A DNA stretch of 64,000 nucleotides from Acetomicrobium flavidum. GTDB taxonomy: Bacteria; Synergistota; Synergistia; Synergistales; Acetomicrobiaceae. The stretch spans positions 310,001 to 374,000 of the forward strand of contig NZ_FSQZ01000001.1 of assembly GCF_900129645.1 (NCBI RefSeq), given 5' to 3'. Shown here in pieces: positions 13,646 through 17,257 of the stretch. Each line of letters opens with the position of its first letter. The first letter of the stretch is position 1. The translations under genes were made by a program, and so were the position numbers. The notes under the pieces were generated by a model. The model ran no database searches, was not told the origin of the DNA, and saw only the letters and a list, made by a program, of their open reading frames with translations.

Positions 13646-15070
13646 ATGGGCTTAATGTTGTATAATGATTTAATGCGTCGTAAGGATGAATTTATTCCCC
13701 TACACCAGGGAAAGGTAGGTTTTTACGTATGCGGACCAACCGTATATGATTACATTCACATCGGAAATGCCAGGCCCTTCGTAGTATTCGACACCTTGAG
13801 GAGATACATGGAACATAAAGGTTTCGAGGTCGTCTACGTCCAAAACTTTACCGACATAGACGACAAGATGATCAATAAGGCCAATGAGCTCGGCATTACG
13901 GTTAAAGAGCTGGCTGAACGATTTATAAAAGCATACTTCGAGGATGTCACCCCTTTGGGCGTTAGACATGCCACGGTACATCCCCTGGCTACGGAACACA
14001 TCGATGAAATAATTGCTCTCATATCGCGGATAATGGAAAGGGGCCATGCATACGTGGTCGAGGGCAACGTCTACTTCGACGTCAAAAGCTTTCCTGGTTA
14101 CGGTAAACTTTCAGGCCAAGGCTTAGAAGAACTTCAAGCTGGCGCGCGCATAGAGGTGGATGCCAGGAAAAAACACCCCCTCGATTTTGTGCTGTGGAAG
14201 GCAAGAAAGCCTGGTGAGCCGTGGTGGGATAGCCCCTGGGGCCCGGGAAGGCCGGGATGGCATATAGAGTGCAGTGCCATGGCAATGAAATATCTGGGAG
14301 AAACAATAGACATACATGGAGGCGGAAGCGATCTCATATTCCCTCACCACGAAAACGAAATAGCTCAATCGGAGGCTGCTACGGGCAAACAGTTCGTGAG
14401 ATACTGGATTCATAACGGCTACCTGCTGATCAATAAGGAGAAGATGTCGAAGTCGCTCGGCAATATACTTACCGTAAGGGAGTTGATTGGAAAATACCAA
14501 CCGTTGGCCGTCAGGCTTTTCATATTGGGAGCTCATTATAGAAGCCCCCTTGATTTCTCTGAGGAATCTCTCACGCAAGCCGTCAGGAGCATGCAGCGTC
14601 TTCGAAACTGCTATTCTGATTTGATATTTTATATGGAAAGAAGCGAGGAGAAAGATACCCCTGACACCTGGCTAGATGATGTAATTCGTAAGGGATACAT
14701 CAAGTTCTGCGAGGCCCTGGACGACGACTTCAACACGGCGGGTGCGTTGGGCAGCGTCTTTGAGATCGTGAGAGACTTGAATAACTATTTGAAGGACAGC
14801 GCATCTCTGGACAAGAACGCTCTGATTAACGCTAAAAAGTTCTTCGATGCCGTAGAAGAGATCATGGGCGTCATTGGCATAGATACGATATTTGCCACGG
14901 CCGAGGAGCTATCGCCCGACGAGATTGAAAAGCTCATAAAAGAAAGGAACGAAGCAAGAAGGAAGCGCGATTTTGCCAGGGCAGATGCCATACGAAATGA
15001 GCTAGCCTCAAAGGGCATCATATTGGAAGATACTCCCCTAGGCACTCGTTGGAAGAAAAAAGAAGACTAG
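13646..15070 (+). CDS. cysS: Cysteine--tRNA ligase
   Basis: This class I synthetase charges tRNA-Cys. The ATG at 13646 follows GGAGAGG at good spacing and gives MGLMLYNDLMRRKDEF; the open frame back to 13595 crosses the promoter region. The protein is 474 residues. Signatures are the HIGH-type motif (YIHIGNARPFVVFDTLRRY), WHIECSAMAM with zinc-ligand Cys and HENE, and KMSKS (NKEKMSKSLGNILTV). A helical DALR-like anticodon region follows. The gene is convergent with the response-regulator gene, leaving only two bases between the stops and no terminator. Confidence 0.97.
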   Translation: MGLMLYNDLMRRKDEFIPLHQGKVGFYVCGPTVYDYIHIGNARPFVVFDTLRRYMEHKGFEVVYVQNFTDIDDKMINKANELGITVKELAERFIKAYFEDVTPLGVRHATVHPLATEHIDEIIALISRIMERGHAYVVEGNVYFDVKSFPGYGKLSGQGLEELQAGARIEVDARKKHPLDFVLWKARKPGEPWWDSPWGPGRPGWHIECSAMAMKYLGETIDIHGGGSDLIFPHHENEIAQSEAATGKQFVRYWIHNGYLLINKEKMSKSLGNILTVRELIGKYQPLAVRLFILGAHYRSPLDFSEESLTQAVRSMQRLRNCYSDLIFYMERSEEKDTPDTWLDDVIRKGYIKFCEALDDDFNTAGALGSVFEIVRDLNNYLKDSASLDKNALINAKKFFDAVEEIMGVIGIDTIFATAEELSPDEIEKLIKERNEARRKRDFARADAIRNELASKGIILEDTPLGTRWKKKED

Positions 15071-15072
15071 GT

Positions 15073-15756
15073 CTATTTCTTCCTTTCCAGAACGTCTAAG
15101 AGTTGCTCGGGAGTATTTTGTGCAAGGCCTGTCTTCCAAGCAAAAACTGCCGCCTGCGTTCTGTCGGAGAGGTCAAGTTTTTTTAAGATGCGGCTGACGT
15201 GGTTTTTAACTGTCTTTTCGGACAGATACATTACCTTGGCTATGTTTTGATTGGAGAAGCCCTGGGATAACCAATACAAGACCTCCTTTTCCCTGGGGGT
15301 CAAGTGGTTTAGTTGGTTAGCGTCGTCTTCCAGGGAAATGATATGGTCTTCACGCACCTCTAGTCGCGGATCCATATATGTTTCGGCTTTAGCTGCATAC
15401 CTGATCGCTAAAAGAAGGTCCTTTAACTTCGATGACTTCAACACGCATCCGTATATGCCGAGCTTCTTTAAGCTGTTCAGAGGAGGAAGGCTGGTCTGTG
15501 CAGTGACGAGGACATATCGTAGGGAGTTGAATTTTTGGGACAGCTCGCGAATGACTTCCACCGTATCGTCCCGGGTTAGATTTTCATCATAAACCAGTAC
15601 ATCAGGATGAGCCATGTCGACAATGTTATTAATTTCGTCGGCATGGCTCATCTCGCCTACGACGGATATATCCATTTCCATTTCCAATATGTGTTTGATG
15701 CACTCCCTGTATAACCTGTGCTTATTTGCTATTGCGACCCTTATCGTCTGCGGCAC
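15073..15756 (-). CDS. LuxR/NarL-type response regulator with altered receiver site
   Basis: The protein is 227 residues from the GTG at 15756, which has AGGAGG seven bases upstream. Residues 1-120 are a receiver fold: a phospho-acceptor Asp (VLVYDENL), the switch Thr (VLVTAQ) and the conserved Lys (GCVLKSS) are kept. The acidic pair normally at the end of strand 1 (ADDH) reads ANKH, so Mg2+-dependent phosphorylation is doubtful. Residues 155-215 are a clean LuxR helix-turn-helix (LTPREKEVLYWLSQGFSNQN, TVKNHVSRILKKL). It lies directly after tRNA-Sec and no partner histidine kinase is adjacent. The longer frame to 15798 would read into the tRNA. Confidence 0.88.
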   Translation of the reverse strand: MPQTIRVAIANKHRLYRECIKHILEMEMDISVVGEMSHADEINNIVDMAHPDVLVYDENLTRDDTVEVIRELSQKFNSLRYVLVTAQTSLPPLNSLKKLGIYGCVLKSSKLKDLLLAIRYAAKAETYMDPRLEVREDHIISLEDDANQLNHLTPREKEVLYWLSQGFSNQNIAKVMYLSEKTVKNHVSRILKKLDLSDRTQAAVFAWKTGLAQNTPEQLLDVLERKK

Positions 15757-15763
15757 TTGATAT

Positions 15764-15769
15764 CCTCCT
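15764..15769 (-). promoter_or_regulatory. Shine-Dalgarno AGGAGG abutting the tRNA-Sec CCA end
   Basis: On the minus strand the sequence runs GCCA-AGGAGG-ATATCAA-GTG. The ribosome-binding site of the response-regulator gene begins at the base immediately after the encoded CCA. It fixes the GTG start at 15756. Cutting the tRNA 3' end would leave an mRNA whose first bases are this site. Confidence 0.85.
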
Positions 15770-15867
15770 TGGCGGAGGCGAATGGGAATCGAACCCACCC
15801 GGGCCAGCCCTTACTGACCCACACCAGATTTGAAGTCTGGGGGCCGCACCAGCGACCAATCGCCTCC
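15770..15867 (-). tRNA. selC: tRNA-Sec (anticodon UCA), CCA encoded
   Basis: The RNA is 98 bases including GCCA at the 3' end. The acceptor stem has 8 base pairs (GGAGGCGA with TCGCCTCC), the hallmark of bacterial tRNA-Sec. The anticodon loop reads CT-TCA-AA inside the stem CCAGA/TCTGG, so it decodes UGA. There is a long variable arm (TGTGGGTCAGTAAGGGCTGG region) and a T arm GTGGG-TTCGATT-CCCAT. It sits 22 bases after the sigma-factor stop and touches the response regulator's ribosome-binding site, so it probably lies inside their transcript. selA, selB and selD are not in this window. Confidence 0.96.
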
Positions 15868-15889
15868 TTCGGACTACTAAATCTTATAG

Positions 15890-16381
15890 TTATTCCCCTC
15901 CCTTGTCCAGTTGTCTCAGGATGTCAGCCTTTTTTCTCGCCCTTGCCACGGCGTTTTCCACCCTTTTATACGGCCATGACAGTGTTTTCGCTGCCTCTAC
16001 TACGCTTCCCGAACTAAGAAAAGCTTTAAGAGCTTTAGATTCCATTGGCGTCAGTAAAGCGTAAAGACTCCCTAAAAAATCCTTTTGCCTTAGCGTTTCG
16101 TCCAGGCTCGTTTCGTCCTGTTGATCCGGAAGGGCTTCCAGCGATATGAGGTCTTTTGTCCTTGCCTTGTTCTTTCTAAGATAGGATATCATCGCATTGC
16201 GAACGCACTTCTTCGCAAAGGCCGGGAAACTTCCCCTGTCTTTACGATAATATCGTATAGCATGATATAATGCTATGTAGCCCTCTTGCGTTAAATCCTC
16301 CTTGAGATGAGGATCCCCGTTCGATAGCAACGAAGCCATCTTGAGGACTAAAGGGGTATACTTCGTTAATATTTCATCCAA
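15890..16381 (-). CDS. Sigma-70 family RNA polymerase sigma factor, SigH-like
   Basis: The protein is 163 residues from the TTG at 16381 (AAAGGAG nine bases upstream); an ATG at 16402 is the alternative but lacks a well-spaced site. Region 2 is clear at residues 28-75 (LKEDLTQEGYIALYHAIRYY, SFPAFAKKCVRNAMISYLRK), closest in style to SigH of Gram-positive bacteria. Region 4 spans about 110-155 (LTPMESKALKAFLSSG, RVENAVARARKKADI). No anti-sigma gene is adjacent. tRNA-Sec follows in the same direction. Target promoters are unknown. Confidence 0.85.
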   Translation of the reverse strand: MDEILTKYTPLVLKMASLLSNGDPHLKEDLTQEGYIALYHAIRYYRKDRGSFPAFAKKCVRNAMISYLRKNKARTKDLISLEALPDQQDETSLDETLRQKDFLGSLYALLTPMESKALKAFLSSGSVVEAAKTLSWPYKRVENAVARARKKADILRQLDKGGE

Positions 16382-16423
16382 CTGATATTGCTCCTTTCTC
16401 ATGTCCTAGGAGGTTTGAAGGTA

Positions 16424-17257
16424 TTGGACAGAGATATATTAAATAGACTGAAATCGGAAAGCAACATTAAAAATGACCTTGTCGTCGTGCCATTTAAATC
16501 CATAAAGGCAGCTTCGAAACAAGGCATACCTGAGAAGACCTTAGAAATCATGCTGCTCGAGGAGGGCCTTGTCCCTGAAAGGTACGAGAGAAACATCGGA
16601 ACCTTCGACATTTCAGGGCAACTTCGGTTATTGAAAAGCAGCATACTAGTGGTCGGCTGCGGTGGCCTGGGCGGATGGAACATCGAGATACTGGCACGAG
16701 CAGGAGTTGGTCATCTCCGCTTGGTTGACTTTGACCGCTTTGAGGCCCATAACCTAAACAGGCAGCTTTTGGCTACTGAAGCTACGCTATATCGACAAAA
16801 GGCTTTGGTGGCTGCAGAAAGGGTCAGAGAGATCAACGCCAGCGTTGACGTTGAAGCGTGCGTTTGCATGTTTGACCAAGATACGGCCAAAGGCTTGATC
16901 GATGGAATCGACGTGGCAATCGACGCCCTAGACAACAACCGCTCAAGACAGCTCCTCTTTGAGGTTTGTCGAGCTTCGGCCATTCCTGTCGTTCATGGAG
17001 CCATAGGGGGATTTGTAGGACAAGTTAAAGTAATAATGCCCAAAGATCCACATCCGCTGGAGATCTTCGGGGAAGATGTCCCCGACAAGGGTATCGAAGT
17101 CGTGTTGGGAAACCCGCCGCAGACTCCAGCGCTGGTCGCCGCCTTGCAGTCCAATGAGGCAATTAAAATTCTCCTGAAGAAGGAGCACATATTGAAAGAT
17201 CGTCTCCTTTGGCTCGATATCGAGCACGACGAATGGATGTCGCTGCAGTTACGCTAA
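16424..17257 (+). CDS. ThiF/MoeB/HesA-type adenylyltransferase lacking zinc cysteines
   Basis: The protein is 277 residues from a TTG at 16424 with AGGAGG nine bases upstream. Residues 1-60 are a helical N-terminal extension. Then comes the E1-like Rossmann fold: VVGCGGLGGWNIEILARAGV (nucleotide loop), LVDFDRFEAHNLNRQ (ATP and arginine-finger region), DALDNNRSRQLL. Family members adenylate the C-terminal glycine of ThiS/MoaD-like carriers. The four zinc-binding cysteines typical of MoeB and ThiF are absent, and no carrier, thiamine or molybdopterin gene is nearby, so the substrate cannot be named. It is divergent from the sigma gene by 42 bases and overlaps punA's 3' end by nine. Confidence 0.8.
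   Translation: MDRDILNRLKSESNIKNDLVVVPFKSIKAASKQGIPEKTLEIMLLEEGLVPERYERNIGTFDISGQLRLLKSSILVVGCGGLGGWNIEILARAGVGHLRLVDFDRFEAHNLNRQLLATEATLYRQKALVAAERVREINASVDVEACVCMFDQDTAKGLIDGIDVAIDALDNNRSRQLLFEVCRASAIPVVHGAIGGFVGQVKVIMPKDPHPLEIFGEDVPDKGIEVVLGNPPQTPALVAALQSNEAIKILLKKEHILKDRLLWLDIEHDEWMSLQLR

Follow-up and report, generated by a model that had tools for sequence, protein, structure and literature searches.

How is a protein gene expressed when its ribosome-binding site begins at the first base behind a tRNA? This question is raised by the selC locus of Acetomicrobium flavidum, which lies on the minus strand of a 64,000-nt stretch of genomic DNA (the window). Along this strand, the stop codon of a sigma factor gene is followed after 22 nt by the gene for the selenocysteine tRNA (tRNA-Sec) with an encoded CCA. 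Next come the Shine-Dalgarno (SD) sequence AGGAGG, the seven bases ATATCAA and the GTG of a NarL/LuxR-type response regulator (Table 1). A first-pass annotation of the window had described this geometry, and its description agrees with the sequence base for base.

Table 1. Features of the selC locus, in window coordinates.
Feature	Position	Strand	Description and evidence
Sigma-70 family factor	15890..16381	-	Start TTG 16381 or ATG 16402; ORF ends at 15890; ancestral upstream neighbour of selC; Pfam Sigma70_r2 (7e-17); TIGR02937 66.8 bits, above cut-off
Predicted selC promoter	15881..15909	-	-35 TGGACA (within last sigma codons), 17 nt, -10 TAAGAT
tRNA-Sec (selC), encoded CCA	15770..15867	-	ARAGORN and Rfam RF01852, 81.3 bits
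Junction CGCCUCC-GCCA-AGGAGG	15764..15780	-	3' acceptor strand, CCA (15772-15770) and Shine-Dalgarno (15769-15764); sequence, folding; genus-restricted
NarL/LuxR-type orphan response regulator	15073..15756	-	Start GTG, first base 15756; degenerate receiver, acidic pair replaced by N-K

The tRNA gene is called by both ARAGORN (anticodon tca) and Rfam. As in other bacterial tRNA-Sec genes, its score exceeds the gathering score of RF01852 (47), the anticodon is UCA and the CCA is encoded; no other match to RF01852 in the genome is over the cut-off. Among 43 tRNA and tmRNA genes inspected in individually retrieved loci of the genome, tRNA-Sec is the only one whose CCA is abutted by a ribosome-binding site and start codon. 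The selB gene is found at C1:96969-98852, about 227 kb from selC, so selC neither lies inside selB nor overlaps it. SelB scores over its cut-off in five of the six Acetomicrobium genomes; in the sixth it is fragmented at contig ends. Its presence shows that Sec decoding exists, and nothing further.

According to the first-pass annotation, the gaps are too short for separate promoters. This is wrong, since a position-conserved candidate of the sigma-A type spans the sigma stop codon. Its -35 box lies within the codons for Leu-Asp-Lys of the sigma tail, and its -10 box lies beyond the stop, 13 nt before tRNA-Sec; transcription would be expected to begin about 5-7 nt ahead of the tRNA. When the tRNA-Sec loci of the order are aligned, the -35 box is mostly TGGACA or TAGACA, with other forms in some families. 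The 17-nt spacing is found in 42 of 53 loci, the -10 box mostly lies 11-15 nt ahead of the tRNA, and a few loci have no clear promoter.

Within the window, TGGACA-N17-TANNNT occurs once. A promoter consensus scan of positions 14900-16700 matched the selC site and no other promoter-like site, and found none between tRNA-Sec and the regulator. By itself, a sigma-70 consensus scan gives matches no more often than expected by chance or in shuffled sequences. It was rejected as stand-alone evidence, and the case for the promoter therefore rests on positional conservation. A promoter upstream of the tRNA, as a tRNA-mRNA dicistron should have, is thus present as a prediction from sequence. A weak promoter for the regulator, unlike the scanned consensus, may also lie inside the unit.

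Many selC genes of the order end in a recognizable way. Outside Acetomicrobium, a terminator-like hairpin with a T-run lies within 110 nt of the CCA in 26 of 48 selC loci, compared with 6% in shuffles. It is absent from all six Acetomicrobium loci, where the regulator begins instead, and no terminator was found in positions 14900-16700. Between tRNA and reading frame there is neither a recognizable terminator nor a recognizable promoter, as in a dicistron, and the distance from CCA to SD is zero. The abutting ribosome-binding site and the lack of a terminator are most simply explained by read-through from selC into the regulator.

Evidence that the junction is more than an accident of one genome can be provided by its relatives. 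The first-pass annotation had named absence from close relatives as what would speak against its proposal; the order sigma-selC-regulator is in fact common to all six Acetomicrobium genomes examined. The exact junction CGCCTCCGCCAAGGAGG (CCA-AGGAGG) occurs in 6/6 of these and in none of 182 other Synergistota genomes searched, and AGGAGG always begins 0 nt from the CCA. While the SD is invariant, the start codon varies (GTG, ATG or TTG) and follows it after 7 or 9 nt. Synonymous sites are saturated between genome G000 and the others. Together these observations indicate that the SD and the start are real, and that the SD is constrained.

The conserved SD favours initiation at the GTG over an upstream start reading through the tRNA. 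The upstream start was rejected, since in G000 the frame stays open for only about 18 further codons, and this differs from genome to genome. A looser search for a tRNA, CCA and AGGAGG outside the genus returned apparent chance matches and one spacer. The latter, at a tRNA-Gly (L214), was rejected as a second case because it is the spacer between genes of a tRNA cluster. The conservation in six genomes of a single genus may nevertheless go back to one founder event, after which selection on the junction did little more than keep an SD.

The sigma factor is an old neighbour of selC. The pair is conserved over several Synergistota families in a xer-pnp-(thiF)-sigma-selC block (window 15890-17257; L055-L058 and L087-L090 elsewhere), where it occurs without the regulator. 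Judging from this distribution, the adjacency is ancestral. The gap between the two genes is 21-22 nt in the six Acetomicrobium genomes and 48-67 nt in four measured genomes of other families. Upstream, thiF and sigma are divergent (window 16381-16430), with start codons apparently within about 45 nt of each other and an SD-like sequence before each, so that each gene probably has its promoter within the coding region of the other.

The regulator came from elsewhere. It has the Response_reg and GerE domains of the NarL type, and its gene is convergent with cysS (cysteinyl-tRNA synthetase), the stop codons being 2 nt apart (window 15070-15073). Likely orthologues in other Synergistota, assigned by best matches and synteny, are about 36-49% identical; they adjoin a ttcA-like gene and, in many cases, fliD. 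Some of them directly follow a NarX/LiaS-like histidine kinase, giving a ttcA-(HK)-regulator-fliD locus, and many have the canonical ADDH receiver. Acetomicrobium still has the ttcA-like gene, but the regulator is gone from beside it. No histidine kinase adjoins the regulator at selC, and no orthologue of the kinase of the relatives was found in the six genomes, the best match being about 32% identical over the kinase domain only.

The receiver has decayed as well. In all six genomes the acidic pair DD of the phosphorylation pocket is replaced by N-K, N-E or N-R, while the phospho-acceptor Asp, the Thr and the Lys are kept. The helix-turn-helix (HTH) is nearly invariant, with a dN of 0.05 between G000 and G005 compared with 0.35 for the receiver. 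Between close genomes the dN/dS of the regulator is 0.13-0.24, which indicates purifying selection. Pocket residues have also been lost in relatives of the regulator from several Synergistota families, still beside the ttcA-like gene (L186, L187, L191, L195-L199); receiver decay is thus not specific to relocation. Taken together, the sequences suggest a relocated orphan NarL-family protein that is probably independent of phosphorylation. Loss of the acidic pair is no proof of such independence; the phospho-acceptor Asp is retained.

In our view, selC and the regulator likely form a tRNA-mRNA dicistron that expresses the orphan regulator from a promoter at the end of the sigma gene. RNA polymerase would start at the promoter overlapping the sigma gene end, transcribe tRNA-Sec and, because no terminator lies behind selC, continue into the regulator. 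No terminator separates sigma from selC either, so a longer transcript that includes sigma may add to this expression. With the kinase neighbour and the acidic pair both lost, the activity of the regulator would probably be set by its amount, and this amount would follow selC transcription.

Maturation of the tRNA would have to separate it from the mRNA, and would thereby physically affect the mRNA. An endonuclease cut near the CCA would leave an mRNA that begins at the ribosome-binding site, with a 13-nt leader opening with the SD. Alternatively, a cut farther downstream followed by 3' exonucleolytic trimming would destroy that site. RNase Z of the Thermotoga maritima type cuts exactly after the CCA. 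No RNase Z was confidently recognized in Acetomicrobium: the best candidate scores far below the TIGR02651 cut-off and did not match any RNase Z of solved structure. For Propionibacterium acnes, mapping of 5' ends has located cuts both a few nucleotides downstream of the CCA and within it (PMC3848588), which makes both processing outcomes plausible.

Several other readings of the locus can be considered. The first-pass annotation saw sigma, selC and regulator as one unit without internal promoters, to which the lack of a terminator between sigma and selC and the gap of only 21-22 nt in six genomes lend some support. A promoter lies directly before selC throughout much of the order, however, and the sigma-selC neighbourhood exists elsewhere without any regulator, so that a three-gene unit of this kind is very improbable. 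What survives of that proposal is a transcript very probably shared by tRNA-Sec and the regulator, for which the missing terminator and internal promoter, the abutting ribosome-binding site and the conservation across the genus all speak. Since the selC promoter lies across the sigma stop codon, sigma is at most an extra source of read-through and not part of the core unit. It is also conceivable, though we doubt it, that a rearrangement simply placed the regulator behind selC, where read-through or a weak promoter of its own drives its expression, and that the arrangement has no regulatory meaning. The restriction to a single genus, the ancestral sigma-selC synteny and the decay of receivers at the ancestral locus in other lineages would all fit such an accident. 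Against it, the regulator is under purifying selection, and the SD has stayed directly at the CCA in genomes that have diverged to saturation at synonymous sites.

The remaining readings concern the tRNA as a control element. The CCUCC of its 3' strand, which is also the anti-SD sequence of 16S rRNA, has two possible partners, the GGAGG at the 5' end of the tRNA and the SD. The first-pass annotation had suggested that the unprocessed tRNA fold could cover the ribosome-binding site; folding predictions give the reverse, since the SD is free when the tRNA is folded and is masked by CCUCC-GGAGG pairing when the acceptor stem is open. It can thus be imagined that CCUCC acts as a built-in anti-SD, and that folding and processing of the tRNA gate synthesis of the regulator. 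With the acceptor closed the SD would be free; with the acceptor open, or in a 3' fragment, translation would be blocked. Such gating would be compatible with the dicistron. Consistent with it, the two predicted folds are nearly isoenergetic in all six genomes (-59.6 to -65.2 kcal/mol with the acceptor closed, -59.1 to -64.4 kcal/mol with the SD hairpin, the latter minus the former being -1.9 to +3.6 kcal/mol), and the zero spacing is kept in all of them. In G000 the SD has a predicted accessibility of 0.20 in the precursor, compared with 0.84 in an mRNA cut after the CCA. In the other five genomes, however, cleavage barely shifts it (0.50-0.58 to 0.54-0.62). Any AGGAGG right behind tRNA-Sec would pair with CCUCC, and none of the paired bases differs between the genomes, which leaves no room for covariation. 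These points make the switch hypothetical, and the tertiary structure and coaxial stacking of the tRNA, which lie outside the folding model, favour the tRNA. We consider such gating unlikely, and the fuller proposal, in which tRNA-Sec serves as 5' UTR and switch so that its maturation doubles as translational control, quite improbable. A feedback from selenium, in which charging or binding of the tRNA by SerRS, SelA or SelB alters processing and makes the regulator selenium-responsive, is hardly credible. The tRNA serves Sec alone, and SelB is encoded in the genus, but charging requires a mature 3' end and so follows the cut. No link between the regulator and selenium genes was found either, its orthologue elsewhere adjoining fliD and the ttcA-like gene.

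The dicistron has relatives among known systems. In the E. coli operons thrU-tyrU-glyT-thrT-tufB, metY-nusA and secG-leuU, tRNA and mRNA share one transcript and are separated by tRNA-processing enzymes. These have spacers between tRNA and mRNA, whereas in Acetomicrobium the spacer between CCA and SD is zero and the tRNA is tRNA-Sec. The regulator resembles NarL/DegU-type orphan response regulators with degenerate receivers in its domain order, lost acidic pair and conserved HTH, and differs from them in its position behind selC. In Alphaproteobacteria, Gammaproteobacteria and Nitrospirae, selC can be nested in or overlap selB, and an effect of processing on SelB has been proposed (Mukai 2021, PMC8124441). 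There too tRNA-Sec is embedded in an mRNA, often immediately ahead of a downstream reading frame, but selC lies inside the selB frame of a sel cluster. In Acetomicrobium it lies outside any annotated reading frame, with its own predicted promoter, an unrelated orphan regulator downstream and a ribosome-binding site that starts at the CCA. Operons of the selABC kind (PMC5330540) likewise have selC and protein genes together in what appears to be a single transcription unit; here the partner is no sel gene and selB is far away. In the literature that was searched, this selC-regulator arrangement is not reported. Judged by its sequence, the locus appears to be a variant of tRNA-mRNA co-transcription that is new in its partner gene, its own promoter and its geometry at the CCA.

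The locus offers a clean natural case in which a functional tRNA would form nearly the entire leader of a regulator mRNA. It allows testing of whether tRNA maturation sets protein output, and of how a response regulator without a kinase may be rewired to control by its level of expression.
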